Shown here: positions 12,698 through 38,566 of the stretch, piece after piece | Layout of the letters: each line of letters starts with the position of its first letter | Position numbering within the stretch: the stretch's first letter is position 1 | NCBI RefSeq assembly: GCF_000424385.1 | Contig: NZ_AUJU01000001.1 | Location: 304,725 to 368,724, forward strand | Direction: 5' to 3' | DNA: 64,000 nucleotides | DNA from: Butyrivibrio sp. LC3010 | Lineage (GTDB): Bacteria > Bacillota > Clostridia > Lachnospirales > Lachnospiraceae | Position numbers and translations under genes: made by a program | The notes under the pieces: model-generated | What the model was told of the DNA's origin: nothing | What the model saw: the letters and a program-made list of their open reading frames with translations, nothing else | The model's database searches: none

Positions 12698-12718
12698 CCG
12701 ATTATTTTATACTACAAA

Positions 12719-12724
12719 TATAAT
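12719..12724 (+). promoter_or_regulatory. Candidate -10 box of tRNA module 1
   Basis: TATAAT at 12719-12724, about 90 bases before the module 1 leader ORF. The -35 match is poor (CTGACC-like at 12694), so the assignment is tentative. Confidence 0.4.
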
Positions 12725-12812
12725 GACAACTAATCTTACCGGTGTTATCATTCGATATATAAGAGAGATAAGCGGAGCAGATAAGAGCTCCCGGAAAGGA
12801 AAAGAAAGAGAC

Positions 12813-12965
12813 ATGACAACAGTGAATCGCAATTATTGCCTCTATAGCGAAAGTTATGAATCATCACTCCAGAGCAAATCAGAGTGGATGTTTAATTTCA
12901 TGCGCTCATTTAAGGATAGGCAAATGCGAGAAAATGTTGTTTTGGCTAAGAACCGGATAGTATAG
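12813..12965 (+). CDS. Putative leader peptide of tRNA module 1 (S/Y/E/L/W-rich)
   Basis: A 50-codon ORF with a purine-rich AAAGAG just upstream of the ATG. Residues 8-25 contain 15 Ser, Tyr, Glu, Leu or Trp out of 18, the same five amino acids whose tRNAs follow in this block. The codons include TCA and AGC/AGT (both Ser isoacceptors encoded downstream), GAA and GAG (both Glu isoacceptors), CTC, TAT and TGG. The 3' part of the ORF can pair with the terminator that follows: TTTAAGG 12909-12915 with CCTTAGA 13012-13018, and GCAAATG 12920-12926 with TGTTTGC 12995-13001. This is the geometry of a transcription-attenuation leader. The peptide itself probably has no other role. Confidence 0.6.
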   Translation: MTTVNRNYCLYSESYESSLQSKSEWMFNFMRSFKDRQMRENVVLAKNRIV

Positions 12966-13004
12966 AGACCGGATCGGAAGCTTATAGATAAACATGTTTG
13001 CGTA

Positions 13005-13039
13005 CCGCTTACCTTAGATGAAAAGGCAAGCGGTTTTTC
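13005..13039 (+). terminator. Intrinsic terminator (attenuator) of tRNA module 1
   Basis: Hairpin CCGCTTaCCTT / AAGGcAAGCGG followed by TTTTT. It lies between the leader ORF and the first tRNA, leaving only 16 bases for a separate promoter, so the tRNAs are probably reached by read-through. Confidence 0.85.
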
Positions 13040-13055
13040 TTTTGCCTCAAAATAT

Positions 13056-13139
13056 GCAGAGTTGGCTCAATTGGTACAGCATCGGTCTTGAAAACCGACA
13101 TTCCTCACGGATATCTGGGTTCGAATCCCAGGCTCTGCG
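13056..13139 (+). tRNA. tRNA-Ser(TGA)
   Basis: Class II cloverleaf with acceptor GCAGAGT / GCTCTGC, anticodon loop CTTGAAA, a long variable arm and T-loop TTCGAAT. No encoded CCA. Confidence 0.93.
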
Positions 13140-13143
13140 CTAT

Positions 13144-13215
13144 AGATTCGTGGTGTAATTGGCAGCACAGCAGTCTCCAAAACTGTTAGTCCGGGTTCAA
13201 GTCCTGGCGGGTCTG
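13144..13215 (+). tRNA. tRNA-Trp(CCA)
   Basis: Acceptor AGATTCG / CGGGTCT with G-U pairs, anticodon loop CTCCAAA, discriminator G as expected for Trp. No encoded CCA; five bases after the Ser tRNA. Confidence 0.9.
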
Positions 13216-13219
13216 TTTT

Positions 13220-13398
13220 GCACGAGTGGCGAAGTTGGTAGACGCACCTGATTTAGGGCTCAAAGCGTCCGGGGGACGCTTGTTCTGAGCCGACCGAAAC
13301 GGAGTGGAGACAGGCGCGGCATGTGGGTTCGATCTACGTTCTACTTCGGTCGGTGCTAAGCGCACATCCCCTGGATGTGCAGCACCCCACCTCGTGTA
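13220..13398 (+). tRNA. Interrupted tRNA-Leu(TAG)-like gene with two structured insertions
   Basis: The outer parts are a Leu tRNA: acceptor GCACGAG (13220-13226) / CTCGTGT (13391-13397), a Leu-type D-arm, and anticodon 5' strand plus loop CCTGATTTAGG with TAG at 13254-13256. The total of 179 bases is twice normal. Two insertions are visible: a hairpin at 13257-13291 starting in the anticodon loop, and a hairpin at 13352-13386 between T-loop TTCGATC and the 3' T-stem CCAC. Adjacent segments GACCGAA (13292-13298) and TTCGGTC (13345-13351) can pair with each other. The 3' anticodon strand is uncertain (CAGG at 13311). It could be an intron-bearing tRNA or a tRNA broken by palindromic inserts. 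Confidence 0.6.
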
Positions 13399-13427
13399 CT
13401 TGGCCAGAGGCCAGAAAGGAGTCGGAA

Positions 13428-13685
13428 ATGACACAGAATATTCCAGCGATCGATATGGTCGCCACGGGACAGAGAATTACAGATTTAAGAGTGGCAGCCG
13501 GTATGTCTGTGAGGGATTTACAGGATGTGTTCGGTTTTGCTACTCCACAGGCGATTTACAAGTGGCAGCACGGAACTGCCATGCCAACACTGGACAATTT
13601 AGTCGTATTAGCAGCTGTTTTAGGTGTTGCTATGGATGACATTATCGTAGTCGAAGGGGAATGGCTTTATTCAATAAGCGCATGA
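13428..13685 (+). CDS. Very small XRE-like HTH protein within tRNA module 1
   Basis: AAAGGAG precedes the ATG at 13428. The 85-residue protein consists of an N-terminal leader and one HTH (GQRITDLRVAAGMSVRDLQDVFGF...AIYKWQHG) followed by LDNLVVLAAVLGVAMDDIIV. It is clearly related to the genes at 14490 and 15439. It is embedded between tRNA-Leu and tRNA-Glu with short gaps, so its mRNA and the tRNAs are probably one transcript cut by tRNA-processing enzymes. Its target is unknown; the tRNA operons themselves are the obvious candidate. Confidence 0.85.
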   Translation: MTQNIPAIDMVATGQRITDLRVAAGMSVRDLQDVFGFATPQAIYKWQHGTAMPTLDNLVVLAAVLGVAMDDIIVVEGEWLYSISA

Positions 13686-13723
13686 ACTGAATATAGATTG
13701 CAGGCGTTAAAGTGCCTGCGTAT

Positions 13724-13797
13724 GGTCCCATAGTCTAATGGTTTAGGACGCTGGCCTTTCACGTCAGAGATACCGGGTTCAAGTCCCGTTGGGATCA
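13724..13797 (+). tRNA. tRNA-Glu(TTC)
   Basis: Acceptor GGTCCCA / TGGGATC, anticodon loop CTTTCAC, T-loop TTCAAGT. No CCA. Confidence 0.93.
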
Positions 13798-13801
13798 CTG
13801 T

Positions 13802-13875
13802 GGCTTCTTGGTCTAATTGGTAAGGACGTCAGCCTCTCAAGCTGGAAATGTCGGGTTCGAGTCCCGCAGGAGCTA
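13802..13875 (+). tRNA. tRNA-Glu(CTC)
   Basis: Acceptor GGCTTCT / AGGAGCT with wobble pairs, anticodon loop CTCTCAA, T-loop TTCGAGT. Starts four bases after the previous tRNA. Reads GAG only; no CCA. Confidence 0.88.
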
Positions 13876-13879
13876 TTAT

Positions 13880-13963
13880 GGGTGGGTATGCCTAGCAGCG
13901 AGGGCAAGGGTCTGTAAAACCCCCACATCAGAAACATCGCAGGTGCAACTCCTGCTCCCCCCA
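13880..13963 (+). tRNA. tRNA-Tyr(GTA), copy 1
   Basis: Class II form with anticodon loop CTGTAAA and a medium-long variable arm. The acceptor GGGTGGG / TCCCCCC has one T-C mismatch, and the T-loop TGCAACT is slightly unusual. No CCA. Confidence 0.85.
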
Positions 13964-13967
13964 CTAT

Positions 13968-14056
13968 GTTTGCGTGACCGAGATGGCTTATGGTATCGCT
14001 CTGCTAAAGCGAAGCACGGCTAAACTGTGCCGAAGGTTCGAATCCTTCCGCAAACG
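13968..14056 (+). tRNA. tRNA-Ser(GCT)
   Basis: Perfect acceptor GTTTGCG / CGCAAAC, anticodon loop CTGCTAA, long variable arm, T-loop TTCGAAT. No CCA. Confidence 0.93.
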
Positions 14057-14060
14057 CTCC

Positions 14061-14143
14061 GGGTAGGTATGCCTAGTGGCGAAGGCAGGGGTCTGTAAAA
14101 CCCTGACAAGGAAACACCGTGAGTTCGAGTCTCACCCTGCCCA
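14061..14143 (+). tRNA. tRNA-Tyr(GTA), copy 2
   Basis: Acceptor GGGTAGG / CCTGCCC, anticodon loop CTGTAAA, class II variable arm, T-loop TTCGAGT. A diverged second Tyr gene in the same block, better paired than copy 1. No CCA. Confidence 0.92.
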
Positions 14144-14147
14144 CTTA

Positions 14148-14166
14148 AGTGTCATCTGATGACACT
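14148..14166. repeat. Perfect 19-base palindrome between tRNA modules 1 and 2
   Basis: AGTGTCATC-T-GATGACACT just after the last tRNA of module 1 and about 110 bases before the module 2 leader. It has no T tract, so it may be an operator or a processing hairpin. The likely module 2 promoter lies just downstream (GATAAT at 14189). Confidence 0.5.
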
Positions 14167-14256
14167 ATACAAATAGGTCCGACAGGGCGATAATACTAAC
14201 AGAACAAAGATATGGAGCTGCGAGGAGCAGTAGAAAGTTAAGAGGATTTATTGTAA

Positions 14257-14385
14257 ATGTACTACGTAACTATCAACAAGCAATTTAATAACAAACAGTT
14301 TATGCAGTTCTGCAAAAATCAGAAGTGCTTTGTTAGTTATGCAAATTGCAAGTTGGTGGAAAGTGGTCCAGGATATGCCAAATGA
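14257..14385 (+). CDS. Putative leader peptide of tRNA module 2 (N/K/Q/F/M/C only)
   Basis: A 42-codon ORF with AGAGGA about ten bases before the ATG. Residues 7-25 read NKQFNNKQFMQFCKNQKCF: all 19 are amino acids whose tRNAs make up the block that follows (Gln, Cys, Phe, Lys, Asn, Met). Codons CAA and CAG, and AAA and AAG, are all used, matching the two Gln and two Lys isoacceptors downstream. Past these codons, TTGCAAG 14346-14352 and AAGTGGT 14361-14367 can pair with CTTGCAA 14442-14448 and GCCACTT 14433-14439 of the terminator. A ribosome held on the N/K/Q/F codons would leave these free; one at the stop codon would cover the second. Confidence 0.65.
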   Translation: MYYVTINKQFNNKQFMQFCKNQKCFVSYANCKLVESGPGYAK

Positions 14386-14433
14386 TGGATGATCCGGAGC
14401 ATTAAGAATAAATGAGGTCATTGAGATCTGTAG

Positions 14434-14465
14434 CCACTTAGCTTGCAAGAGTTAAGTGGTTTTTT
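14434..14465 (+). terminator. Intrinsic terminator (attenuator) of tRNA module 2
   Basis: Hairpin CCACTTA / TAAGTGG with a 12-base loop, then TTTTTT. Located 48 bases after the leader stop and 24 bases before the HTH gene. Confidence 0.85.
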
Positions 14466-14489
14466 AATGCGAAAAAGGAGAATGGAAGA

Positions 14490-14711
14490 ATGGATTATCC
14501 AGTAATTGATATTGAAGGAACAGGAATTAGGATTAGGAAACTGATCAGAGAGAGCGGACATACAGTGCCAGAGGTTTCTGAGTACCTGGGAGCAAGCACA
14601 TCCCTTGTATATAGATATCTGCGAGGGGAAGTGCTTCCAAGCATAGATAGGATTGTAGCGCTTTCAGTTTATCTGGAAGTTCCGATTGATGACATAATTG
14701 CAGTCGATTAA
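14490..14711 (+). CDS. Very small XRE-like HTH protein within tRNA module 2
   Basis: Seventy-three residues with AAGGAG upstream. Same fold and end as the module 1 gene: GTGIRIRKLIRESGHTVPEV, then SLVYRYLRGEVLPSIDRIVALSVYLEVPIDDIIAVD. The stop is ten bases before tRNA-Gln, so gene and tRNAs must share a transcript. The shared terminal motif (PxxDxxVxLxxxLxVxxDDIIxV) marks one family. Confidence 0.85.
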   Translation: MDYPVIDIEGTGIRIRKLIRESGHTVPEVSEYLGASTSLVYRYLRGEVLPSIDRIVALSVYLEVPIDDIIAVD

Positions 14712-14721
14712 GACTGCGCGT

Positions 14722-14792
14722 TGCGGCATGGGGTAATGGTAGCCCACAGGATTTTGGTTCCGGTAATCTTGGTTCGATTCCAAGTGCCGTAG
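14722..14792 (+). tRNA. tRNA-Gln(TTG)
   Basis: Acceptor TGCGGCA / TGCCGTA, anticodon loop TTTTGGT, T-loop TTCGATT. One mismatch in the anticodon stem. No CCA. Confidence 0.9.
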
Positions 14793-14796
14793 TTAA

Positions 14797-14868
14797 GACA
14801 TGGTAGCCAAGCTGGAAAGGCAGCGGACTGCAACTCCGCCAACGTGGGTTCGAATCCCACCTATGTCT
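14797..14868 (+). tRNA. tRNA-Cys(GCA)
   Basis: Acceptor GACATGG / CTATGTC, anticodon loop CTGCAAC, T-arm GTGGG/CCCAC. No CCA. Confidence 0.92.
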
Positions 14869-14872
14869 CTTA

Positions 14873-14944
14873 GGGCTTGTAGCTCAACTGGTAGAGCTGG
14901 GGACTGAAAATCCCTGCGAGGTGGTTCGACCCCACCCGGGCCCA
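14873..14944 (+). tRNA. tRNA-Phe(GAA)
   Basis: Acceptor GGGCTTG / CGGGCCC with G-U pairs, anticodon loop CTGAAAA, T-loop TTCGACC. No CCA. Confidence 0.92.
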
Positions 14945-14948
14945 TTAT

Positions 14949-15020
14949 GCTTCCTTGGCAGAGCGGATATGCACCGGCCTTTTAAGCCGAGAGATGCGGG
15001 TTCAACCCCCGTGGGGAGCA
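14949..15020 (+). tRNA. tRNA-Lys(TTT)
   Basis: Acceptor GCTTCCT / GGGGAGC, anticodon loop CTTTTAA, T-loop TTCAACC. No CCA. Confidence 0.88.
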
Positions 15021-15024
15021 CTAA

Positions 15025-15097
15025 GCTGTTGTAGCTCAGTTGGAAGAGCAGTAGACTCTTAATCTGAAGGTCGTGGGTTCGAGCCCCACTAACAGCA
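15025..15097 (+). tRNA. tRNA-Lys(CTT)
   Basis: Acceptor GCTGTTG / TAACAGC, anticodon loop CTCTTAA, T-arm GTGGG/CCCAC. No CCA. Confidence 0.92.
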
Positions 15098-15101
15098 TTA
15101 T

Positions 15102-15174
15102 TGCGGTATAGCTCAATTGGTAGAGCACCTGACTCTGACTCAGGGCGTTGCAGGTTCGAGTCCTGCTACCGTAG
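15102..15174 (+). tRNA. tRNA-Gln(CTG)
   Basis: Acceptor TGCGGTA / TACCGTA, anticodon stem CCTGA/TCAGG with loop CTCTGAC, T-loop TTCGAGT. No CCA. Confidence 0.92.
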
Positions 15175-15178
15175 TTCT

Positions 15179-15251
15179 GGACACATAGCTCAATCGGCAG
15201 AGCGCCCGGCTGTTAACCGGGAGGTTGTGGGTTCGATTCCCTCTGTGTCCG
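15179..15251 (+). tRNA. tRNA-Asn(GTT)
   Basis: Acceptor GGACACA / TGTGTCC, anticodon stem CCCGG/CCGGG with loop CTGTTAA. One mismatch in the T-stem. No CCA. Confidence 0.92.
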
Positions 15252-15255
15252 CTAT

Positions 15256-15328
15256 TCCAGGATAGCGTGGGAGGTAGAGCATCCGCTTCATACGCGGAAG
15301 GTTATGGGATCATGGCCCATTCCTGGGA
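15256..15328 (+). tRNA. tRNA-Met(CAT)-like, degenerate T-loop
   Basis: Acceptor TCCAGGA / TCCTGGG and anticodon stem TCCGC/GCGGA with loop TTCATAC. The T-loop is ATCATGG instead of TTCRANY, and the D-arm is weak, so this copy may be decayed or specialised. No CCA. Confidence 0.75.
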
Positions 15329-15368
15329 CTCTTTTCCTATAGAGGTGCTTTGTAGATTAGCTATCCAA

Positions 15369-15385
15369 TTTATCAACCACGAGTT
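15369..15385 (+). repeat. 17-base direct repeat, copy 1
   Basis: TTTATCAACCACGAGTT occurs 41 bases after the last tRNA of module 2. An exact second copy is at 17483-17499, 38 bases after the last tRNA of module 3. Confidence 0.8.
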
Positions 15386-15438
15386 TATATACAATGAGAT
15401 AAATCTCCAATAAAATAAAAATAGAGGAGGCAATATCG

Positions 15439-15795
15439 ATGGATGATGGATATAGAAAAGTAATGGAGATCCTAGAAGCAAATAGATTTAGACACATGTT
15501 GGAGCCTTTGGATTACACTGTGTCTTGGGAAGAACCTGACAGGGTAAAAGGACTTGACCTTGAAGCTACAAAGAATAGAGTGTGCAATCTGATTAAAACA
15601 AAGGGATTAAAAGATAAGACCATTGCTGATAAATTGGGTATTACTCCGCAGGCTGTTAATAAATGGCGACATAAAGGATCTTTTTTTGTGATTGAAAACC
15701 TTTATATTCTCAGTGGCCTTCTGGGTGTAAGTGTTGATAATCTTTTAGTCCCTGTAGCCGTAAAGAAATGGGAAGTTTTGATTGAGAAAAGATGA
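15439..15795 (+). CDS. Small HTH protein with N-terminal extension, end of tRNA module 2
   Basis: GAGGAGG precedes the ATG. Of 118 residues, the last 75 form the same HTH family as the two genes inside the tRNA blocks (KNRVCNLIKTKGLKDKTIADKLGI...AVNKWRHKGSFFVIENLYILSGLLGVSVDNLLV). The first 45 residues are an extra segment of unknown role. The gene lies between the module 2 tRNAs and the phosphoesterase gene, on the same strand. Confidence 0.85.
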   Translation: MDDGYRKVMEILEANRFRHMLEPLDYTVSWEEPDRVKGLDLEATKNRVCNLIKTKGLKDKTIADKLGITPQAVNKWRHKGSFFVIENLYILSGLLGVSVDNLLVPVAVKKWEVLIEKR

Positions 15796-15849
15796 GAGCC
15801 CTAATGTTAGTGAAGCAATGAATCAGTTTGGAATAATCGGAGTTTTGAA

Positions 15850-16548
15850 ATGAGCAGAGTACTTGTGATTCCTGATGTACATTTAAAGCCATGGATTTTT
15901 GATATGGCTGATAGAGTTGATGAGAACAGCTACGATGACATTGTAATTCTCGGAGATTTGGTAGATGATTGGGGAAAGGGAAATGATTTAGACGCATATA
16001 ACGAGACTTTGGACAGGGCTGCTGAATTTGGAAAAGAGCATGACCATTCATTGTGGTGCTATGGCAACCACGATGTATCCTATTTTTGGGATGCCATGGA
16101 ATCGGGGTATTCTGTCCAGGCAAGGATAACTGCTATTGAAGGTATTACCAGACTGGAGCGTGTTATTGAAGAACGTTATAGATTTGTCCATAAAATTGAT
16201 GATGTGCTGTTCAGTCATGCCGGTCTTACGGAGAGTTTTGTCTTTCAGACGTGTGGATATCATATGAAAGAGATTGATGATATCCTTGCAAGGATTAACC
16301 GTATGGGTAAGCAGGAACTGTGGAGGGATAATTCACCGATTTGGGCAAGACCTCAGGCTGATTTCTACCGAATGTTCAGGGATGATCTCTTTTACCAGGT
16401 TGTGGGACATACACCTGTAGAGGAACCACTTGACCTTGGAGGCGTACTGACGCTGGATCTTTTTTCAACATACTCAAATGGGGATCCGTATGGTAACCAG
16501 AAGTTGTATATTGTGGATACTGCAACCCGGAAATATGAAGAAGCATAA
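15850..16548 (+). CDS. Calcineurin-like metallophosphoesterase, copy A
   Basis: A 232-residue enzyme with all metal motifs: IPDVHLKPW (D-x-H), ILGDLVDDW (GDxxD), YGNHDVS (GNHD), SHAGLTE and VVGHTPVE (GHT). These bind two metal ions for phosphate ester hydrolysis. It is about three quarters identical by eye to the protein at 26649-27356, the two copies bracketing the RNA-repair region. In RNA-repair systems such a domain (for example bacterial Pnkp) removes 2',3'-cyclic or 3' phosphate from broken RNA; that role here is inferred from context. Confidence 0.85.
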   Translation: MSRVLVIPDVHLKPWIFDMADRVDENSYDDIVILGDLVDDWGKGNDLDAYNETLDRAAEFGKEHDHSLWCYGNHDVSYFWDAMESGYSVQARITAIEGITRLERVIEERYRFVHKIDDVLFSHAGLTESFVFQTCGYHMKEIDDILARINRMGKQELWRDNSPIWARPQADFYRMFRDDLFYQVVGHTPVEEPLDLGGVLTLDLFSTYSNGDPYGNQKLYIVDTATRKYEEA

Positions 16549-16610
16549 TTTTTTTGCAGATTTAGAAAAGTGCTTTACAAGTCATAATACAGGTGCTAAT
16601 GTAAATACAT

Positions 16611-16676
16611 AGGAAGTGCCTGTCCTATTTATTTTGATGCAATCATCAACATAAATATGCGGTCGCTTCCTTTTTT
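16611..16676 (+). terminator. Terminator after phosphoesterase copy A
   Basis: Long stem: AGGAAGTG / CGCTTCCT outside, ATTTAT / ATAAAT and GATG / CATC inside, then TTTTTT. Confidence 0.75.
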
Positions 16677-16724
16677 GTTAAATTAAAACAGAAATACTAC
16701 GAAAGGTAAGGTTTTAAGCTTTCA

Positions 16725-16883
16725 ATGAGAAATATGATGTTTACAAATTTCACAGCCATAGAAACTACAGCATATGATTGCACGATCGATATGCTTAGTA
16801 CTCGTGCGCTCGATTTGGCGACATCACGCGGCAAAAAAGGTATAGAAAGAAATAGAAGGATAGATTATAAAGTCCGATGTTAG
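16725..16883 (+). CDS. Putative leader peptide of tRNA module 3 (T/A/I/D/M-rich)
   Basis: A 52-codon ORF; AAAGGTAAGG lies upstream at a longer than usual distance. In residues 4-33, 19 of 30 are Thr, Ala, Ile, Asp or Met, exactly the five amino acids of the tRNA block that follows. The rare codon ATA, read by the downstream tRNA-Ile(TAT), is at residue 12. Near the 3' end GGATAGAT (16858-16865) is perfectly complementary to ATCTATCC (16925-16932), the 5' arm of the terminator. As in modules 1 and 2, a ribosome stalled early would free this antiterminator. Confidence 0.6.
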   Translation: MRNMMFTNFTAIETTAYDCTIDMLSTRALDLATSRGKKGIERNRRIDYKVRC

Positions 16884-16921
16884 ACTGATACCAGGCACAT
16901 TGGAATAATAATCAGGGTTTT

Positions 16922-16957
16922 AGGATCTATCCGTGAAAGTGGGTAGGTCCTTTTTTA
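16922..16957 (+). terminator. Intrinsic terminator (attenuator) of tRNA module 3
   Basis: Ten-pair hairpin AGGATCTATCC / GGTAGGTCCT followed by TTTTTT, 38 bases after the leader stop and 13 bases before tRNA-Ile. Confidence 0.87.
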
Positions 16958-16970
16958 ATATAAAAAATGA

Positions 16971-17042
16971 TGGGCGGTAGTTCAATGGTGAGAACCGGTG
17001 TCTTATATGCATCTAACCTGAGTTCGATTCTCAGTCGCCCTA
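16971..17042 (+). tRNA. tRNA-Ile(TAT)
   Basis: Anticodon loop CTTATAT gives TAT, which reads ATA. Acceptor TGGGCGG / TCGCCCT has six pairs and a T-T mismatch at the end; D-stem GTTC/GAAC and T-arm CTGAG/CTCAG are perfect. Bacteria usually read ATA with lysidine-modified tRNA-Ile(CAT), so a UAU isoacceptor is notable. No CCA. Confidence 0.85.
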
Positions 17043-17093
17043 TTAGGGAATAGTTAGCAGGCACTTCTTATTCCTGAAAAACTTAATACTTTA

Positions 17094-17121
17094 GCAGAAG
17101 TCTACAGGCACGGACTTCTGC
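17094..17121 (+). repeat. Strong hairpin between tRNA-Ile and tRNA-Ala
   Basis: GCAGAAGTC / GACTTCTGC with a 10-base loop, not followed by T. A related string (TACAGGCGCGGACTTC) occurs near 12198. Possibly a processing signal within the tRNA transcript. Confidence 0.45.
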
Positions 17122-17126
17122 ACCGC

Positions 17127-17203
17127 GGGTCTTGGGACTGCATGGGGTGGTCGCCTGCTTTGCAAGCAGGATATTCAGGTGGGTTCAATTCCCACAAGAT
17201 CCA
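17127..17203 (+). tRNA. tRNA-Ala(TGC)
   Basis: Anticodon stem CCTGC/GCAGG with loop TTTGCAA. Acceptor GGGTCTT / AAGATCC contains the G3-U70 wobble pair that identifies alanine tRNAs. No CCA. Confidence 0.93.
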
Positions 17204-17214
17204 TTTAAGCTTTC

Positions 17215-17288
17215 GCCTTCCTAGCTCAACTGGCTAGAGCATCTGCCTTGTAAGCAGAGGGTTCAGGGTTCGAGTCCCTGGGTAGGCT
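17215..17288 (+). tRNA. tRNA-Thr(TGT)
   Basis: Acceptor GCCTTCC / GGTAGGC with one mismatch, anticodon loop CTTGTAA, T-arm CAGGG/CCCTG. No CCA. Confidence 0.9.
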
Positions 17289-17291
17289 TTT

Positions 17292-17363
17292 GGCTCTATA
17301 GTATAAAGGCTATTATGCCGGACTGTCTATCCGGAGATCAGAGTTCGATTCTCTGTAGAGTCG
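17292..17363 (+). tRNA. tRNA-Asp(GTC)
   Basis: Acceptor GGCTCTA / TAGAGTC, anticodon stem CCGGA/TCCGG with loop CTGTCTA, discriminator G. No CCA. Confidence 0.93.
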
Positions 17364-17370
17364 TTTATAT

Positions 17371-17445
17371 TGCGGGATAGTCTGGAGATGGTTCCAGCCC
17401 AGCCTCATAAGCTGTGCAACGCAGGTTCGAATCCTGCTCCCGCGA
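17371..17445 (+). tRNA. tRNA-Met(CAT), elongator type
   Basis: Acceptor TGCGGGA / TCCCGCG, anticodon loop CTCATAA, T-arm GCAGG/CCTGC. It lacks the three G-C pairs of an initiator anticodon stem. A lysidine Ile(CAT) identity cannot be excluded. No CCA. Confidence 0.85.
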
Positions 17446-17482
17446 CTAAGCTATAGAAAATTTGCAGGTTTCAGCTTCATGT

Positions 17483-17499
17483 TTTATCAACCACGAGTT
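17483..17499 (+). repeat. 17-base direct repeat, copy 2
   Basis: Exact copy of TTTATCAACCACGAGTT (see 15369), followed by the small palindrome ACTGACAGTCAGT. Both copies directly trail a tRNA block. Confidence 0.8.
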
Positions 17500-17669
17500 A
17501 ACTGACAGTCAGTATGTATAGGGATATCATTTAATTAAATGGATTGTGCGCCGTCACATTAATCCGGTGGTGGTGTGAAAATCAGATGGTGTCCACCTAT
17601 CGGGCGTCGCCGTAACAGTCGGATTTACAAGATTTGGGAAAATAAGTATAGCAGGGAGAGATGATAGAA

Positions 17670-18422
17670 ATGCGTTTTGATGAGATGGACAAAAAGATGC
17701 GTGTTTACGAGCAGTCCTTAGATCAGGTATTGCTTCCGGATATTTATATGGTGGCAAGGCTTGATGGCAGAGGCTTTACAAGACTTACTAAGGAAGTCTG
17801 TCATTTTGAAGCACCATTTGATGAAAAGTTTAGAGATATGATGGTGAAAACAACAAAAACTCTCATGGATTGCGGATTCAGAGTAGTATACGCCTATACA
17901 GAAAGCGATGAGATTTCATTATTGTTTGCGGCAGATGAAGATGCATTCGGCAGAAAAGTGCGCAAGTATAATTCAACACTTGCTGCTGAAGCAAGCGCAG
18001 TCTTTTCGCTTGAACTTGGGATGGCGGCAACATTTGACTGTAGAATGGTGCCTCTTCCAAATGCTGAGAGAGTTGAGGATTACTTCAGATGGCGTCAGGA
18101 AGATGCTAACAGGAATGCGCTAAATTCACATTGTTACTGGATGCTCCGAAAGGAGGGCACATCAGTTCATAAAGCTACGTTAGAGTTGAAAGGAAAAGGT
18201 GTTGCGTATAAAAATGAGCTGCTTTTCAGCAGAGGAATCAATTATGATAAGTTGCCCTCATGGCAGAAACGAGGCGTAGGCATGTGGATAGAAGAGTATG
18301 GAAAAGAAGGATTTAATCCGCTTACTGGTGAAACAAAGATGACAACACGTAAAAGAATACATGTAGATTACGAACTGCCGTTAGGTGATGAATATGGCAG
18401 CTTTATTCGGAAATTTACTTAA
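17670..18422 (+). CDS. Thg1-like 3'-5' RNA polymerase (tRNA-His guanylyltransferase family)
   Basis: GGGAGAG lies upstream; the ATG at 17670 has better spacing than that at 17661. The 250-residue protein has the family's catalytic carboxylates in ARLDGRGFTRLT and TESDEISLLF and the following SxxAAxxS-type region. Eukaryotic Thg1 adds G-1 to tRNA-His; bacterial Thg1-like proteins instead add nucleotides in the 3'-5' direction to repair 5'-shortened tRNAs. No tRNA-His is encoded nearby, which favours a repair role. It is the first gene after tRNA module 3 and heads the RNA-repair genes. Confidence 0.9.
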   Translation: MRFDEMDKKMRVYEQSLDQVLLPDIYMVARLDGRGFTRLTKEVCHFEAPFDEKFRDMMVKTTKTLMDCGFRVVYAYTESDEISLLFAADEDAFGRKVRKYNSTLAAEASAVFSLELGMAATFDCRMVPLPNAERVEDYFRWRQEDANRNALNSHCYWMLRKEGTSVHKATLELKGKGVAYKNELLFSRGINYDKLPSWQKRGVGMWIEEYGKEGFNPLTGETKMTTRKRIHVDYELPLGDEYGSFIRKFT

Positions 18423-18439
18423 GGAGGATGAAAAGAAAA

Positions 18440-19486
18440 ATGAGAAAATTAGCATCAATACAGAAGATAAAGGAAGTCTTTCCAATACCCGATGCAGACA
18501 GACTGGAACTTGTTCAGGTTCTTGGATGGAAGTGTGTCGGAGGAAAGGGAGAATTTCATGTGGGAGATCTGGTGGTCTATTTCGAGATAGATTCCTTTCT
18601 CCCTGTATGTGAGGAGTTTGAATTCCTGAGAAAGAGTTCCTACAGAAGTAATGATTTTATGGGTGAAGGATTCAGATTAAAGACTATGAAGTTCAGGGGA
18701 GAGATATCCCAGGGATTATGCCTTGGGATTGATAAGCTCTCAAAGCTTCAGGGGATGAGTCTTGAAGAAGGAATGGATGTGACGGAAATCCTTGGAGTTC
18801 GCGAGTGGGAAATGCCAGAAAGGGCAGGATCAGGAGGAACCATGATAGGTGATCGGCCCGGATATATACCTAAGACTGATGAGACAAGGATACAGTCAGC
18901 GCCGGAGCTGCTTAATGAGTTTAAGGGGCTGCCTTATTACATAACAACCAAGATGGATGGTTCAAGCCATTCCATAGGTGTAAGGGACGGAGAAATTTCT
19001 TTTACCGGCCATAACTTCACTTATAAGGATGACGGAAAGTCAGCGTTTGTGGAGCATGTAAAAACAGCAGGTATTCCAGAAAAGATGAAGGTATATGCAG
19101 AGGAACATGGACTGAGCTCTTTGGTTCTCCAGGGAGAATGGTGCGGGGAAGGAATACAGAAGAACAGACTTAGGCTTAAGAAGCCAGAGTGGTTTGCATT
19201 TACGGCAAGAGCTGATGATAAGAGAACTGACCTGGCAACGCTTAAGGAAATCTGCAGATATGTCGGATGTCAGATGGTTCCGGTGGAAGAGGAAGGCGAT
19301 GATCTCTTAGCAAAGTATCCTGATGAGGCGGCTCTATTAGCAAGGGCAGAAGGTGTTGGATACAATGGGACAATACGAGAGGGAATAGTAATAAGGCCTG
19401 TTACGCCTGTTCACTCTTATACACTTAGCGGGCCTTTATCAATGAAAGTGATAAACAACAAGTATCTAATGAAAAATGATGAGTGA
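18440..19486 (+). CDS. RNA ligase, DraRnl (DRB0094) family
   Basis: An AAGGAGG lies just before ATG 18428, too close for that codon; the ATG at 18440 (MRKLASI) is chosen but the earlier one is possible. Residues 1-100 are the N-terminal OB-like module of this family (KIKEVFPIPDADRLELVQVLGW...). The nucleotidyltransferase domain follows, with motif I KMDGS (lysine about residue 171), motif IV EGIVIRP and motif V LSMKVINNKYL. The family seals 3'-OH/5'-phosphate nicks, with an RNA 3' end, in duplexes. It starts within 20 bases of the Thg1-like gene's stop. Confidence 0.9.
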   Translation: MRKLASIQKIKEVFPIPDADRLELVQVLGWKCVGGKGEFHVGDLVVYFEIDSFLPVCEEFEFLRKSSYRSNDFMGEGFRLKTMKFRGEISQGLCLGIDKLSKLQGMSLEEGMDVTEILGVREWEMPERAGSGGTMIGDRPGYIPKTDETRIQSAPELLNEFKGLPYYITTKMDGSSHSIGVRDGEISFTGHNFTYKDDGKSAFVEHVKTAGIPEKMKVYAEEHGLSSLVLQGEWCGEGIQKNRLRLKKPEWFAFTARADDKRTDLATLKEICRYVGCQMVPVEEEGDDLLAKYPDEAALLARAEGVGYNGTIREGIVIRPVTPVHSYTLSGPLSMKVINNKYLMKNDE

Positions 19487-19504: not shown

Positions 19505-20092
19505 ATGATATCAACTTTATATGAACCATTCAGGCACTGGTCAGAAAATGGATCTGTTTATATCCTGTCTGATACGCATTTTAAAGATTCTGATTGTAAA
19601 CTCATGGACCCTGACTGGATAGAACCAGATGAACAGGTTAATATCCTGAATTCTGTGATCATGAAAAATGACACATTTGTCTGCCTGGGAGATGTTGGAA
19701 GTCCTGAATATATAAAAAAGCTCAGGGTCAGAAAGAAGATACTGCTTCTTGGAAACCATGACAGAAGGGGAGATTACAAGGACCTTTTCAATGAGATATA
19801 TTCCGGTCCACTATTTATAGCAGACAAGATTCTTTTGTCACATGAGCCGGTATACGGACTTCCGTGGTGTCTTAACATCCATGGACATGACCATAGTAAC
19901 ATGGAGATGTACAAGGAAGGCTGCAAGCATTTAAACCTTGCAGCCAATGTATGCGGATATACTCCGGTCAATCTTGGAAAACTGATAAAAGACGGGATTC
20001 TATCTGATATCGACAGTATACACAGGATCACGATTGATCATGCAGTGGAGAAGAAAGAAAAGAAGTGGATTAGTAAAGAGACACAGCAATGA
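19505..20092 (+). CDS. Calcineurin-like phosphoesterase, RNA-repair operon
   Basis: GGGAGG upstream of the ATG; 195 residues. Metal motifs are SDTHFKD, CLGDVG, LGNHDRR, LLSHEP and NIHGHDHS. It is shorter and clearly different from the copies at 15850 and 26649. The stop overlaps the next RNA ligase start (ATGA), so the two are translated together. A role in trimming RNA 3' ends before ligation is a fair inference. Confidence 0.85.
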   Translation: MISTLYEPFRHWSENGSVYILSDTHFKDSDCKLMDPDWIEPDEQVNILNSVIMKNDTFVCLGDVGSPEYIKKLRVRKKILLLGNHDRRGDYKDLFNEIYSGPLFIADKILLSHEPVYGLPWCLNIHGHDHSNMEMYKEGCKHLNLAANVCGYTPVNLGKLIKDGILSDIDSIHRITIDHAVEKKEKKWISKETQQ

Positions 20093-21195
20093 AATCGAAG
20101 ATATTAGAGTTTATAGAAAATAATACAGATAGCTGGGAAGAAAAGCTGAATGCAATGCTCATTAGGATAAGCCGTAATGGTGATTTGGCTTGCTTTAAGT
20201 ATATGGCAGAAGCTGATTTCTCAGATCCACTGGTATGCGAAGCAAGAGGAATTATAATTGACGTGGTTCAGCGCGTAGTGGTCTGCTGGCCGTTTGATAA
20301 GTTTTTTAATGTACAGGAACAGTATGCTGCAGATATTGACTGGAATAGCGCCATGGTGCTGGAAAAAATAGATGGCTCTATGATAAAGCTTTTCTGGTAC
20401 AAAGGTGCTTGGAGATTTGCGACAAGTTCTACCTGTGATGCTAAGGATGCTGCTATTCCAGGGTATAACGAACTGACTTATGCGGACATAATTGCCCGTG
20501 CTGAAAACGTAAATGAGATTCCTTTTGAGGAACTGAATAAAGACTATACCTACATTTTTGAGCTTGTTTCTCCACTTAGTCAGATTGTTGTCAGATATGA
20601 AATGACTGAGCTGTTCTTCCTGACCGCAAGAAATAATCTTACAGGTGAAGAGTTGGATACAGAGCTTCTGCAATTTAGGAGACCCAGGAGCTTTGCACTA
20701 ATATCTTTGAATGAGTGTCTTGTTGCTGCTCTTGCGCTAAATAAGGGTGGCGAGATAGAGTATGAGGGTTTTGTCGTGGTTGATGAGAAACATAACAGGG
20801 TCAAGATAAAGTCTCCGGCATACGTGGCTATGCACAGATTATCTACGAATAAAGTGTTCACCGTAAAGAGAATGGCTGAGTTTTTCTGTAATGGTGAGGA
20901 TCTTTCAAAGCTGGCAAAAGATTTTCCGGCTAATGCCCATATCATTAAGTACTATGATTGGCAGTTTGCTGAGATGAAGCATAAAGCAGAAGACATGATG
21001 CTTTATTCCAGGCGCCTTTATGAAGAATACGACCACGACAGGAAAGCAGTAGCCATGACCATAAAGGATTCTCCATACGCATGGGCTGGATTTAAGGCAA
21101 TTGGGAACGAAAAGGACATCAGTGATATCATGGCAGTGCTTGCACCGGCAAATGTTGAAAAACTGATTGTGGAGTATCCTGAGATAAGTAATTGA
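20089..21195 (+). CDS. T4 Rnl1-like RNA ligase
   Basis: The 368-residue protein has motif I EKIDGSM (lysine about 93), the preceding ARGIIID segment, motif III-like YTYIFELVSP, motif IV EYEGFVV and motif V RVKIKSPAYV, plus a helical C-terminal domain of the Rnl1 type. T4 Rnl1 reseals tRNA cut in the anticodon loop by PrrC. Having this ligase, a phosphatase and a kinase in one operon beside a tRNA array strongly suggests tRNA repair. Four-base overlap with the upstream gene. Confidence 0.88.
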   Translation: MKSKILEFIENNTDSWEEKLNAMLIRISRNGDLACFKYMAEADFSDPLVCEARGIIIDVVQRVVVCWPFDKFFNVQEQYAADIDWNSAMVLEKIDGSMIKLFWYKGAWRFATSSTCDAKDAAIPGYNELTYADIIARAENVNEIPFEELNKDYTYIFELVSPLSQIVVRYEMTELFFLTARNNLTGEELDTELLQFRRPRSFALISLNECLVAALALNKGGEIEYEGFVVVDEKHNRVKIKSPAYVAMHRLSTNKVFTVKRMAEFFCNGEDLSKLAKDFPANAHIIKYYDWQFAEMKHKAEDMMLYSRRLYEEYDHDRKAVAMTIKDSPYAWAGFKAIGNEKDISDIMAVLAPANVEKLIVEYPEISN

Positions 21196-21235: not shown

Positions 21236-22147
21236 ATGAGTTCTATAACTTTTGTGATCGGAGCAACTGCTTCTGGAAAATCATTTTATATAAATGAAAT
21301 GTTTTCGCAGGAAGACGTAGACATTTTAAATGCATATGATTATCAACAAAGAGCATATGATGAGGCAGGGTATGAAGACGCAATTCCAATTTCTGTGCAG
21401 AAAAAATGTGTTATGAAGGCTAATAGTATGCTTCTCGAAGATATTTTGAGAGACGTTAAGGCAGGCAAGAAAGTTGTTGTAGAGCAGACCTTCTATAAGG
21501 CCAAGCGACGTATTGCATATATTGATGAAATCAGGAAGTGCGGTGATGTGACTATAGATGTCCATGTAATGTGCCCTGATGATGATCAGTGGAAGATGAA
21601 TATCCAAAAGCGTGGATTAGATGATCGGTTTGAATATTATAAAGCTATTGAAACAGAAATAGAGTTTCCAAACCCAAGTGAAGGCTTTGACAATATCTTT
21701 GCTGTAAAAAATGGCAAACCTGTCCTAAGAATGGATGATCCTAAGCCTGAAATAGTTGATATAGCAAGAAAAGAGCTACAGAAAGAAGCAGAGATGATTA
21801 AGGCTGAAGATGCTAGGAGAGAAGAAAAGGAAAAACTCATAGAGTCTATGAAAAAAAGACCTTTTTGGCATTATTGTGAGGTCTGTGGAAAAAAAGAATA
21901 TATAACTGCTGAGCAGGCATATATGAGTGGATGGGATTATCCTCCTCACATTGGGATGTTTGGAGTGCTTAGTCCAAGAACATGTGGTAATTGCTCTGAC
22001 ATGGATACTCTATGGGCAAAGTTTATTGCAAAAGATGAATCGAATTGTTTTACTACATCAGAATTAAATGAGTCAGAACGGAAGACATTGCAAAGAATTA
22101 AGGGAGAACCTGAAAGCTTGCTGACAGAAGATGCGTGGGATTTATGA
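21236..22147 (+). CDS. P-loop kinase with C-terminal zinc-binding domain (polynucleotide-kinase-like)
   Basis: GGGAGGG precedes the ATG. Walker A GATASGKS is at residues 9-16, followed by a lid region and VEQTFYKAKRR, as in small-molecule, zeta and polynucleotide kinases. The C-terminal third carries CEVCGKKEY and CGNC, a zinc-ribbon pair. In this operon the expected job is to phosphorylate a 5'-OH RNA end for the neighbouring ligases, which is the missing activity in the set. It has not been shown; an ADP-ribose or toxin-type kinase is an alternative. Confidence 0.75.
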   Translation: MSSITFVIGATASGKSFYINEMFSQEDVDILNAYDYQQRAYDEAGYEDAIPISVQKKCVMKANSMLLEDILRDVKAGKKVVVEQTFYKAKRRIAYIDEIRKCGDVTIDVHVMCPDDDQWKMNIQKRGLDDRFEYYKAIETEIEFPNPSEGFDNIFAVKNGKPVLRMDDPKPEIVDIARKELQKEAEMIKAEDARREEKEKLIESMKKRPFWHYCEVCGKKEYITAEQAYMSGWDYPPHIGMFGVLSPRTCGNCSDMDTLWAKFIAKDESNCFTTSELNESERKTLQRIKGEPESLLTEDAWDL

Positions 22148-24511: not shown

Positions 24512-25678
24512 ATGAACAAATCAGCTGAAATTTTTAAGCCAGGGGCATTACCTGTGACTACTTATATTTCCAGAGAAGCTGCGCTAGGTTTTACTTATGA
24601 GGAGAGACTTGAGCAGGCGTTAAATATGTCTGGGTATATAACACTTATTTCCGGTCCATCCAAAATAGGAAAAACGGTACTGTGTGAAAGAGTTGTGGGA
24701 ATCGACAACCTTGTAGAAGTATTGGGTTCAGACTTTTTGAATAAAGAAAATGTATGGAAGACAATCGGTGCAAAGGCAGGGATGCCTTTATCGGGAATGG
24801 TTACTACAGGAAATACTGATAATTCTATATCTGAGGAGTACATTGTAACACGAGAAAATGTTATAGCTTATTATCAGGAGCATGAACTTGTGCTGCTTAT
24901 TGATGATTTTCATTACGCAAGCGAAGAAATACAGCGATTTTTATCGCAACAGCTGAAAGACGCTATCAGGAAAGGACTAAAGGTAATAATATCTTCGCTT
25001 CCTCACAGATGTGACGATGCAATCAGAACCAATCCTGATCTGCAGGGACGTATAAGTATAATCGATATTAAGCCCTGGTCTAAGGATGAATTGAGACAGA
25101 TTCCAAGAAAAGGATTTGCGCAGCTTGGAATATATGTTGATGATAAGTATATTGAAAGCTTAGTCGGCGAGAGCCTTGCATCACCTCAATTGATGCAATT
25201 GTTATGCCTGAATCTGTGTGTGCTTATAAAGGCAGATTCTGGTAATGCAGTTGATGTTAGCGAAGAGATTATAAAAAAAGCTTATAAGTTTTCAACTCTG
25301 AACCTGGACTTTAAAAACGTCACTGCTGTTATCAGTAATGGAAAGACAAAACGTGGTAGAGAACGAAAAAAATATTGTACAAGCAAGGGAGAGTTGGATT
25401 TATATTCGCTTATACTTGAAGCTATTGCTCAGGATCCGCCTATAGAGGAGATTGGATTCGATGACCTGTTGACGAGAATCAATAAAACAATTGTTGGAGA
25501 TGATAAGGTTACACCTAAATCATTAAAAGAATATCTGGGCAACATACAGGAAGTCCTAAACGATAAAAACAGAACTTTTGAGGTTCTTGAGTGGAGAGAT
25601 AACGTACTGTATGTTATAGAAGCATTATTCTTATTCTATTTACGTTGGGGGCGCAATGAACAGGGAACAGAGTATTGA
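24512..25678 (+). CDS. AAA/STAND-like ATPase, candidate defence gene
   Basis: The 388-residue protein has Walker A GPSKIGKTVL (about residues 48-57) and Walker B ELVLLIDDFHYAS (about 128-140), then a region QGRISIIDIKPWSKDELRQI as in ORC/Cdc6-like or NACHT-related ATPases, and a winged-helix-like C-terminus. Its 3' end overlaps the nuclease gene by 23 bases. Such ATPase plus nuclease pairs are common in anti-phage systems; this exact pair is not one I can name. Confidence 0.75.
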   Translation: MNKSAEIFKPGALPVTTYISREAALGFTYEERLEQALNMSGYITLISGPSKIGKTVLCERVVGIDNLVEVLGSDFLNKENVWKTIGAKAGMPLSGMVTTGNTDNSISEEYIVTRENVIAYYQEHELVLLIDDFHYASEEIQRFLSQQLKDAIRKGLKVIISSLPHRCDDAIRTNPDLQGRISIIDIKPWSKDELRQIPRKGFAQLGIYVDDKYIESLVGESLASPQLMQLLCLNLCVLIKADSGNAVDVSEEIIKKAYKFSTLNLDFKNVTAVISNGKTKRGRERKKYCTSKGELDLYSLILEAIAQDPPIEEIGFDDLLTRINKTIVGDDKVTPKSLKEYLGNIQEVLNDKNRTFEVLEWRDNVLYVIEALFLFYLRWGRNEQGTEY

Positions 25679-26378: not shown

Positions 26379-26512
26379 AAACCGATAAACATTCCTCGGC
26401 ATCTTTTTTTGGCCAAGGGAATTGCACAAATAGCCAGTATGGATGTTTTTAAATACAAAAAATAATAGTTAGCTGTCTGGCTGAGATGGATGAAATATAG
26501 TCGTAATACTGA

Positions 26513-26560
26513 GCATCAGCTCATGAGTGCGCTGCACTTGTGGCTGGTGCTTTTTCTTTT
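26513..26560 (+). terminator. Terminator downstream of the ATPase-nuclease pair
   Basis: Hairpin GCATCAGC / GCTGGTGC with inner AGTGC / GCACT, then TTTTT. Confidence 0.78.
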
Positions 26561-26648
26561 GTCCTTTTGTTCGAAATTCTCGAACCTAAAGTTCTATTTC
26601 TAAGAGAACGTATTATTCCGTCACGTTCCGTAGAATTACATATTAGAA

Positions 26649-27356: not shown

Positions 27357-27362
27357 AGAATT

Positions 27363-38521: not shown

Positions 38522-38566
38522 TTAACTGTAAGTGAACATAAAACAACACTCATGGAGGGAAAAGAT

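Follow-up and report, generated by a model that had tools for sequence, protein, structure and literature searches.

Codon-matched leader reading frames ahead of tRNA gene blocks in Butyrivibrio and its relatives point to attenuation of tRNA arrays

Introduction

Transfer RNA genes are usually considered constitutive, and we know of no agreed regulation or purpose for mobile tRNA arrays. What, then, is to be made of a locus in which each block of tRNA genes follows a short reading frame and a predicted terminator? This question is raised by a stretch of 64,000 nucleotides from the 4.6 Mb genome of Butyrivibrio sp. LC3010, called the window here. At 12.7-17.5 kb, the window repeats three times the order of promoter-like region, short open reading frame (ORF), hairpin with T-run and tRNA genes. 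An earlier note on this DNA proposed that the ORFs are leader peptides, each composed of the amino acids of the tRNAs behind it and controlling that block. This reading is supported by the comparisons described below, which extend to related bacteria of the rumen and gut: the units probably work by ribosome-mediated attenuation with codon-matched leaders, and tRNA genes would be the product.

Three leader-terminator-tRNA modules

The three modules consist of the following features.

12707..12751, + strand: module 1 promoter, ATGACA-17-TATCAT with TG ahead of the -10
12707-12723, + strand: palindromic operator-like box (TTATAC..TATAA) of module 1, overlapping the -35; matched with 1 mismatch
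12813..12965, + strand: leader ORF 1, control codons 8-25 for Tyr, Ser, Glu, Leu and Trp; sister islands have close counterparts
12905..12928, + strand: predicted antiterminator strand in leader 1, codons 31-39, complementary to terminator 5' arm and loop; duplex -19.2 kcal/mol
~13004..13035, + strand: predicted intrinsic terminator 1, hairpin and T-run; absent from the consensus scan list
13056..14144, + strand: tRNA block 1, with Ser(TGA), Trp, interrupted Leu(TAG), Glu(TTC), Glu(CTC), Tyr (Rfam only), Ser(GCT) and Tyr(GTA)
13428..13685, + strand: HTH_3 (Cro/CI-type) protein in block 1, the marker gene for finding relatives
14148..14194, + strand: module 2 promoter region with palindrome AGTGTCATCTGATGACACT (box 14148-14166), almost invariant across 16 aligned loci
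14257..14385, + strand: leader ORF 2, control codons 7-25 for Asn, Lys, Gln, Phe, Met and Cys
14345..14360, + strand: predicted antiterminator strand in leader 2, codons 30-35; duplex with terminator 5' arm -19.0 kcal/mol
~14432..14461, + strand: predicted intrinsic terminator 2, hairpin and T-run; in the consensus scan list
14490..14711, + strand: HTH_3 protein, separating terminator 2 from its tRNAs
14721..15329, + strand: tRNA block 2, with Gln(TTG), Cys, Phe, Lys(TTT), Lys(CTT), Gln(CTG), Asn and Met (ARAGORN)
16725..16883, + strand: leader ORF 3, with Thr, Ala, Ile, Asp and Met
16818..16867, + strand: predicted antiterminator strand in leader 3, main stem ~16858-16866; duplex -12.9 kcal/mol, the weakest of the three; fold made without the 3' arm
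~16922..16951, + strand: predicted intrinsic terminator 3, hairpin and T-run; in the consensus scan list
16971..17446, + strand: tRNA block 3, with Ile(TAT), Ala, Thr, Asp and Met (ARAGORN)

The earlier note had counted the matching amino acids in each leader, and its counts agree with the translations: Ser, Tyr, Glu, Leu and Trp make up 15/18 of residues 8-25 in leader 1, Asn, Lys, Gln, Phe, Met and Cys 19/19 of residues 7-25 in leader 2, and Thr, Ala, Ile, Asp and Met 19/30 of residues 4-33 in leader 3. The order of ORF, terminator and tRNAs that it described occurs three times, although small helix-turn-helix (HTH) genes of the HTH_3 family lie within modules 1 (13428-13685) and 2 (14490-14711). 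Block 1 encodes the amino acids claimed for it, but its Leu(TAG) gene (13220-13399) is interrupted by structured inserts; this gene measures 180 nt, versus 83 nt in the sister islands, is uncalled by ARAGORN and may be non-functional. In total, ARAGORN called 19 tRNA genes in the modules and Rfam one more, at 13880-13963. Only 22 nt separate terminator 1 from its first tRNA.

The chance level of such a match was estimated within the window from 15,360 stretches of 29 residues, taken from stop-to-stop frames of at least 150 amino acids in six frames, real and spurious alike. Over residues 2-30, 128, 0 and 57 of these stretches are as well matched as modules 1, 2 and 3, respectively, and over the best 18 residues the numbers are 0, 0 and 146. 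Module 3 is thus not striking by itself, and it is the set of three modules together with their relatives that makes the pattern striking. The true assignment of the window's leaders to its blocks ranks first of 6 possible.

Related loci

The HTH protein of module 1 was the main anchor for relatives, with matches in 329/397 family genomes (E<=0.001, distant matches included). In all, 150 related loci were gathered, comprising 60 stretches with the stronger HTH and Thg1 matches, 80 named bacterial loci (the best 80 of 543) and 10 viral contigs. Among these best 80 of 543, the island's nearest named relatives belong to Butyrivibrio and Oribacterium (HTH 93-100% identical; L110-L124 and L126), followed by other Lachnospiraceae. 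Leaders were found by a detector blind to composition, which asked for an ATG ORF of 24-70 codons, Shine-Dalgarno energy, and a stop codon -12 to +140 nt from a hairpin with T-run; a ribosome-binding site, ATG start and terminator are therefore selection criteria for the relatives as well. The detector returned 349 leader-terminator pairs from the 150 loci and the window, many of them outside this leader family, and 103 pairs have tRNAs within 3.2 kb and ahead of the next pair. After one unit with an untyped tRNA only (L113) was dropped, 102 typed units remained, distributed over 76 of the 86 tRNA-containing loci. Leaders shorter than 33 amino acids were dropped from the leave-out, frame and position tests, and L196 and leaders shorter than 34 amino acids from the tail-arm swap test.

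In a wider search, the promoter pattern was found in 4/391 class genomes, Butyrivibrio sp. LC3010 included; of its hits in the other three (L207, L208 and L210), the two that were read carry a leader, that of L208 with a GTG start. An extra match in the LC3010 genome (L211) has no leader in the stretch read, and the stretches covering the three rtcB loci of this genome (two C41, one C29) gave no canonical promoter-leader unit, the pattern matching only L050 and the window. With Thg1 as anchor, six close family relatives (L080-L085) have no tRNA in the stretches examined. Among the DNA matches listed from phage and plasmid collections, most span no more than a tRNA-sized piece; H1, H2 and H4 are exceptions, of which H1 and H4 were retrieved. 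As a separate observation, module 1 has another copy in the LC3010 genome, L050 (G000:C30), which is degraded in part and has an HTH protein 98% identical, a near-identical leader and one tRNA-Glu called in its 20-kb stretch.

Leader codons match the tRNAs of their own unit

Clustering at 50% identity sorted the 102 leaders into 30 groups, each represented by the member with the most tRNAs, and the null was obtained by permuting tRNA sets among leaders 20,000 times. In residues 2-30, the fraction cognate to the unit's own tRNAs is 0.353, versus 0.223 in the permuted sets (sd 1.5%; z 8.7; p 5e-5, the floor). The match is also found at the level of codons (0.330 vs 0.191, z 9.9) and is absent from residues 31-70 (z -0.1, 28 clusters). 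A lack of correlation between leader composition and tRNA content in homologous loci had been set beforehand as the outcome that refutes the proposal, and the opposite was found.

The result holds for different subsets of the sample. When the window, L050 and the sister islands L110-L128 are left out, z is 7.5 (26 clusters); with the same omissions, units whose first tRNA lies within 600 nt give z 7.3, and those in which it lies beyond 600 nt give z 3.5 (11 clusters). The largest homologous family alone gives z 4.6 (26 distinct leaders), and clustering at 40% gives z 6.2. In addition, the match is specific to the ORF frame (z 8.5), with z values of 0.04 and -0.15 in the other two frames. This dependence on the frame is the strongest indication in the sequence for translation of the ORFs. 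Along the leader, the cognate excess spans codons 6-29 with a peak at 14-17, is about 0 at codons 30-37 and does not exceed 0.05 beyond (72 distinct leaders).

All testable amino acids (19/19) have a higher mean frequency in those representatives whose unit has the corresponding tRNA. In a presence test on 74 distinct leaders, His is carried by 13/14 leaders with a His tRNA versus 19/60 without, Glu by 38/38 versus 27/36, Trp by 5/5 versus 20/69 and Gln by 9/9 versus 35/65, while Cys and Lys give a weaker result than these four. The earlier note had extended the match to isoacceptors, which is borne out in part: among cluster representatives, in units with a single isoacceptor box, 37/50 Ser, Leu and Arg codons use that sole box, versus 29.1 expected. 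For ATA, the Ile(TAT) tRNA of block 3 would read the codon as claimed, but the control part of leader 3 holds both ATA and ATC.

Furthermore, in all 20 loci with at least two modules (20/20), the leaders' own assignment to blocks is uniquely the best; 14 of these loci allow just two pairings, and the window together with its sister islands accounts for 16 of them. This comparison was run first on 7 hand-chosen loci and later on all 20. Individual loci illustrate the range of sets: a Tyr/Leu/Ser block lies behind the leader ..NVLSSSYVLYLSLLL.. in L058 and L190, and a Phe/Ile/Ser/Lys/Cys/Gln block behind ..NYCFNQISQQSALFCKSQQ.. in L051. In L094, a Met-Met block lies behind the Met-rich leader MRSTMMMREMNMRR.., which has the promoter box and a terminator read by eye; this leader escaped the detector and is excluded from the statistics. 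Also outside the statistics is L220, a record from human faeces labelled Bacteriophage sp., whose leader MLTAIKFCKSSYSFKHSSYSKKNS.. was chosen by eye among short ORFs before tRNAs. Its residues 7-22 (FCKSSYSFKHSSYSKK) are 16/16 Phe, Cys, Lys, Ser, Tyr or His, and its tRNAs are Lys, Phe, Ser, Ser, His and Cys by ARAGORN and Tyr by eye. A second phage-labelled record, L219, has an RtcB-like ORF, the HTH gene, three tRNAs and a leader that matches the one in L144.

Could the match be chance, or an artefact of how the ORFs were chosen? The weakness of module 3 by itself, with 57/15,360 stretches as good, speaks for this. However, the ORFs were picked on their start codon and length, the Shine-Dalgarno energy and the distance to the terminator alone, and the control region reaches z 7-9 while the tail and the other frames are flat. 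Given the permuted-set, tail, frame and leave-out controls, this explanation was rejected, and the probability left to it is negligible. A leader RNA that senses tRNA directly, in the manner of a T-box, is very improbable, as is a function of the ORFs in making active peptides. Firmicutes commonly sense tRNA through T-boxes, but the window scan gave no T-box at the Rfam gathering score, the match is frame-specific across ~24 codons, and the peptides differ strongly in sequence from locus to locus, their composition tracking the tRNAs.

A predicted antiterminator that co-varies with the terminator

Attenuation by a ribosome also calls for a strand that competes with the terminator, an element that the earlier note missed. 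In the window and in relatives, base pairing is possible between the tail of the ORF and the terminator, in its 5' arm and loop. Over 107 leaders, the pairing energy of tail and arm is -18.69 kcal/mol for a leader's own pair and -14.38 kcal/mol for swapped pairs (z -16.3); when each 50% cluster contributes a single leader, it is -18.83 versus -14.15 (z -10.2, p at floor, 43 clusters). Tails differ along with the terminator sequence in modules 2 and 3, L108, L149 and L193. The pairing tail (codons 26-50) starts at codons 26-40 in the leaders displayed, about where the cognate excess stops. Against shuffled sequences, tails are moderately more complementary to the arm (mean z -0.80, 100 leaders); the control codons give a mean of +0.18, with 11% of leaders below -1.64.

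The 5' untranslated region (5'UTR) was considered as an alternative site, as many leaders have there an AAGCGG-type stretch able to pair with the terminator arm. An antiterminator in the 5'UTR rather than the ORF tail was rejected, with swap z values of -3.2 (all leaders) and -0.2 (clusters): the stretch barely co-varies with the arm and is retained as a possible extra element. Separately, the 5'UTR contains a hairpin-like AAGCGG..CCGG before the Shine-Dalgarno sequence (for example at window 12765-12800), with stems that by eye appear to covary across loci.

Proposed mechanism

In combination, four features of a ribosome-mediated attenuator are found here: a short ORF with ribosome-binding site, in-frame control codons, a predicted terminator and a co-varying antiterminator strand. 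On the leader codons, the ribosome would sample the same tRNAs as the operon encodes. A shortage of any cognate tRNA would stall it within codons 6-29, leaving the ORF tail available for pairing with the terminator's 5' arm, and the resulting antiterminator would allow transcription to read through into the replacement tRNA genes. Ribosomes that do not stall would presumably cover the antiterminator strand and thereby let the terminator fold. If the stop codon is located far past this strand, ribosome queues or tight coupling to polymerase may, conjecturally, occupy the tail. Translation of the leaders, stalling and read-through of the terminators are what we infer from these sequence features.

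Some of the tRNAs could instead be transcribed from promoters downstream of the terminators, an outcome that the earlier note took as contrary to its proposal. In 40/102 units, the first tRNA lies within 25 nt 3' of the hairpin, too close for a promoter to fit in between, short of one that overlaps the hairpin; the other 62 units leave room. A second layer of control, at initiation, is likely, given the HTH genes in the units and the palindromic promoter boxes. The boxes at 12707-12723 and 14148-14166 are distinct palindromes, each kept in relatives, and are likely operators, perhaps of the HTH proteins. A box related to that of module 1 precedes 59/103 tRNA-bearing units.

Several observations weigh against this reading of the units. 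With regard to their composition, the promoter box is missing in 44/103 tRNA-bearing units, window modules 2 and 3 among them; 10/86 tRNA-bearing loci have no detected leader unit ahead of a tRNA, and 41/100 promoter-bearing leaders have no detected tRNA downstream. With regard to the codon match, a 35% cluster cut leaves only 4 clusters (p 0.04), and presence tests are non-significant for 13 of the 19 amino acids in the 74 distinct leaders, in which Met has no effect and Met and Asn point the opposite way in the presence test. Synonymous and non-synonymous variants (6/23 and 14/22) give no clear sign of peptide conservation. With regard to the switch, only 21% of tails fall below a shuffle z of -1.64, a stretch of the 5'UTR pairs with the arm too (mean shuffle z -0.99, 33% below -1.64), and the control codons give a weak swap signal (z -1.9 for all leaders, -3.3 for clusters). 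When a ribosome is masked in an equilibrium fold, mean arm pairing is 0.72 free, 0.74 with the ribosome stalled at the control codons and 0.67 with it over the tail, which is little switching in a model blind to timing; the control position lies above the tail position in 22/30 comparable leaders and above the free state in 21/32 run. Finally, many leaders continue for 10-20 codons past the antiterminator strand before their stop codon, and a terminated ribosome would not cover that strand.

RNA repair genes and the likely trigger

The modules are followed in the window by RNA-repair genes, and two further genes lie between tRNA block 2 and module 3.

15370..15385, + strand: TTATCAACCACGAGTT box, copy 1, ahead of the HTH-like and phosphoesterase genes, shortly 3' of tRNA block 2
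15439..15795, + strand: HTH-like protein; weak match, under Pfam cut-offs
15850..16548, + strand: calcineurin-like phosphoesterase (Pfam Metallophos)
17484..17530, + strand: TTATCAACCACGAGTT box, copy 2 (17484-17499), then promoter-like CTGACA-17-TATCAT, ahead of the RNA-repair genes, shortly 3' of tRNA block 3
17661..18422, + strand: Thg1-family protein (3'-5' nucleotidyl transferase family; Pfam Thg1, Thg1C)
18428..19486, + strand: RNA ligase (Pfam RNA_ligase, PHA02142 OB fold; phrog_968)
20089..21195, + strand: T4 RNA ligase 1-like protein (Pfam RNA_lig_T4_1; phrog_562)
21236..22147, + strand: AAA_33 kinase-like protein; weak polynucleotide kinase match

Past module 3, the order on the same strand is Thg1-family protein, RNA ligase, phosphoesterase, T4 Rnl1-like ligase, AAA_33 kinase-like protein and PARG-type protein. 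The TTATCAACCACGAGTT box has 2 exact 16-nt matches in the window, versus 0.03 expected (with up to 2 mismatches), and because it precedes both these genes and the HTH-like/phosphoesterase genes, the RNA-repair genes may have their own promoter. In some relatives, L154 among them, the leader promoter box shares ACCACGAGT with it.

Elsewhere, the repair gene is commonly rtcB. Among 100 leaders with the promoter box, the number with a given neighbour within 3.5 kb is 69 for an rtcB match, 96 for the HTH gene and 59 for tRNAs. The RtcB identity was confirmed by Pfam for 5/5 such proteins tested, and L060 additionally encodes an RlaP-type RNA-repair nucleotidyl transferase. In the window, Thg1, two RNA ligases and the kinase-like ATPase are found downstream instead of RtcB. 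With rtcB beside many leaders and an RlaP-type protein in L060, RNA repair combined with tRNA replacement appears to be a common theme. The earlier note took the tRNAs themselves as the regulated product; with rtcB near 69/100 leaders and no tRNA detected for 41/100, the product is better described as tRNAs together with RNA repair.

These same numbers are the main argument for a different account, in which leaders and tRNA sets both track the tRNAs that are vulnerable to a toxin, the leader mainly induces RtcB and other repair genes, and the tRNAs are passengers. The tRNA-less leaders ahead of rtcB are similarly rich in Ser and Leu, and the codon match is weaker yet present where the first tRNA is more than 600 nt downstream (z 3.5, 11 clusters). 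However, passengers would not be expected within 25 nt of the hairpin, as in 40/102 units, nor would modules of one element be expected to differ in their sets with the own leader best for each (20/20 multi-module loci), and blocks for Ile/Ala/Thr/Asp/Met, Met-Met and Tyr/Leu/Ser are matched as well. This account is regarded as unlikely, though not remote.

What would set off the switch under attenuation of tRNA and repair genes? The leaders might be classical attenuators for amino-acid starvation whose target genes happen to be tRNAs, sensing charging rather than tRNA loss. Their architecture is that of amino-acid operon leaders, and uncharged and destroyed tRNA are expected to stall a ribosome alike. 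Against this, no amino-acid biosynthesis gene was recognised among the Pfam-named proteins in or beside the units (farther neighbours were examined in part), a single leader mixes up to eight amino acids, and the products would not relieve hunger, whereas RtcB and the Thg1/ligase sets suit RNA damage. A starvation attenuator is considered unlikely. Because RNA-repair genes lie in or beside many units and the scanned proteins included no recognisable biosynthetic enzyme, we infer that the natural trigger is tRNA loss, for example by cutting with an anticodon nuclease, rather than amino-acid hunger; uncharged tRNA would act like destroyed tRNA.

In a broader interpretation, which we hold to be somewhat favoured by the data, the units would keep watch over the tRNA pool in modules that can be reprogrammed, each leader being a codon barcode of the tRNAs it precedes. 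Mobile islands would sense by stalling which tRNAs an anticodon nuclease has destroyed, be it one used by a phage or a rival or one belonging to the host's defences, and would transcribe exactly those tRNAs together with repair enzymes, the barcode being rewritten upon each gain or loss of a tRNA. A leader that lists its tRNAs makes the purpose of the array readable, as its sequence tells which tRNAs the element expects to lose. If true, this would extend attenuation from metabolism to RNA damage, provide a direct ribosomal sensor for anticodon-nuclease attack and make toxin targets predictable from leader composition in many genomes.

Comparison with known systems

Amino-acid operons such as trp, his and ilv are regulated through their leaders by ribosome-mediated transcription attenuation. 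The arrangement is as found here: an ORF with control codons, an antiterminator that competes with an intrinsic terminator, and structural genes behind. However, amino-acid attenuators regulate biosynthetic or aminoacyl-tRNA synthetase genes, whereas the product here is tRNA (and RNA-repair) genes, and one leader has codons for up to eight amino acids, matched per module. A study of 2010 reported leader peptides of amino-acid genes as a new finding in Firmicutes, including a His leader ahead of hisZ/hisS paralogues in bacilli (PMC2965389).

Regulated tRNA arrays and repair operons have also been described. In Anabaena, TrcR represses the trn operon and rtcB together, and a silent extra tRNA array is switched on under translational stress (PMC10272220). 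The TrcR motif ATACTACACTTGTATTAC given there resembles the TTATACYRCRRGTATAA box of promoter 1, a likeness of motif only. TrcR is a ribbon-helix-helix repressor, in contrast to the HTH_3 proteins and codon-matched leaders here, and the main text of that paper nowhere uses "leader" or "attenuat-" (PMC10272220). The window itself has a protein with weak Arc-like repressor matches at 38552-39007.

The rsr-yrlBA-rtcBA RNA repair operon is induced by tRNA damage, and its activator RtcR senses 5' tRNA halves with a cyclic phosphate; "leader" and "attenuat-" are absent from that text (PMC7790460). There the sensor is a protein activator, whereas here the ribosome on matched codons would sense. No RtcR (CARF-domain activator) turned up among the proteins scanned, although no search aimed at RtcR was made. 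Dense tRNA arrays in mycobacteria and tRNA clusters in viruses are also known, with an XRE regulator gene in ~87% of one mycobacterial array group, and neither text contains "leader", "attenuat-" or "terminator" (PMC5966550; PMC6409571). A review of viral RNA regulation was not pertinent (PMC9693318). Among the matches listed in a full-text literature search, which left most subscription journals uncovered, leader peptides ahead of tRNA genes or rtcB are undescribed, the nearest systems being the Anabaena trn operon with rtcB, the RtcR operon and the leaders of amino-acid genes. Attenuation is known; that it acts on tRNA arrays through matched leaders with several kinds of control codon would, as far as could be seen, be new.

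Other features of the arrays and the island

The inserts that interrupt array tRNA genes are structured and mutually complementary (for example, ..GACCGAARCGGAGYGGAGAC.. and ..CTTCGGTCGGTGCT..). Besides the window tRNA-Leu gene at 13220-13399, they interrupt, by reading, a tRNA-Lys gene and a Tyr-like gene in L210 (~1855-2790). Right-end pieces of the insert occur in L057, L178 and L050, with partial matches elsewhere in the genome, and the insert region has no non-tRNA Rfam family at the gathering score. The inserts are possibly a small mobile element or a product of tRNA gene decay.

The arrays of L190 and L058 are large, with 29 and 18 tRNAs called, respectively. Amid their tRNA modules lies a DUF2828/DUF7788/VWA-like protein (L190 6348-7850 and L058 7384-8853, - strand coordinates), assigned by Pfam in L190 only and by its similar start in L058. 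This protein may resemble Ro60/TROVE proteins.

Farther along the window, 24512-28757 encodes an ATPase with a PDC-S59 match, a DpnII/MboI-type nuclease and a weak PtuB match, possibly a defence locus on the same island. Additionally, the Rfam pemK RNA motif is found at 38345-38423, above the gathering score.

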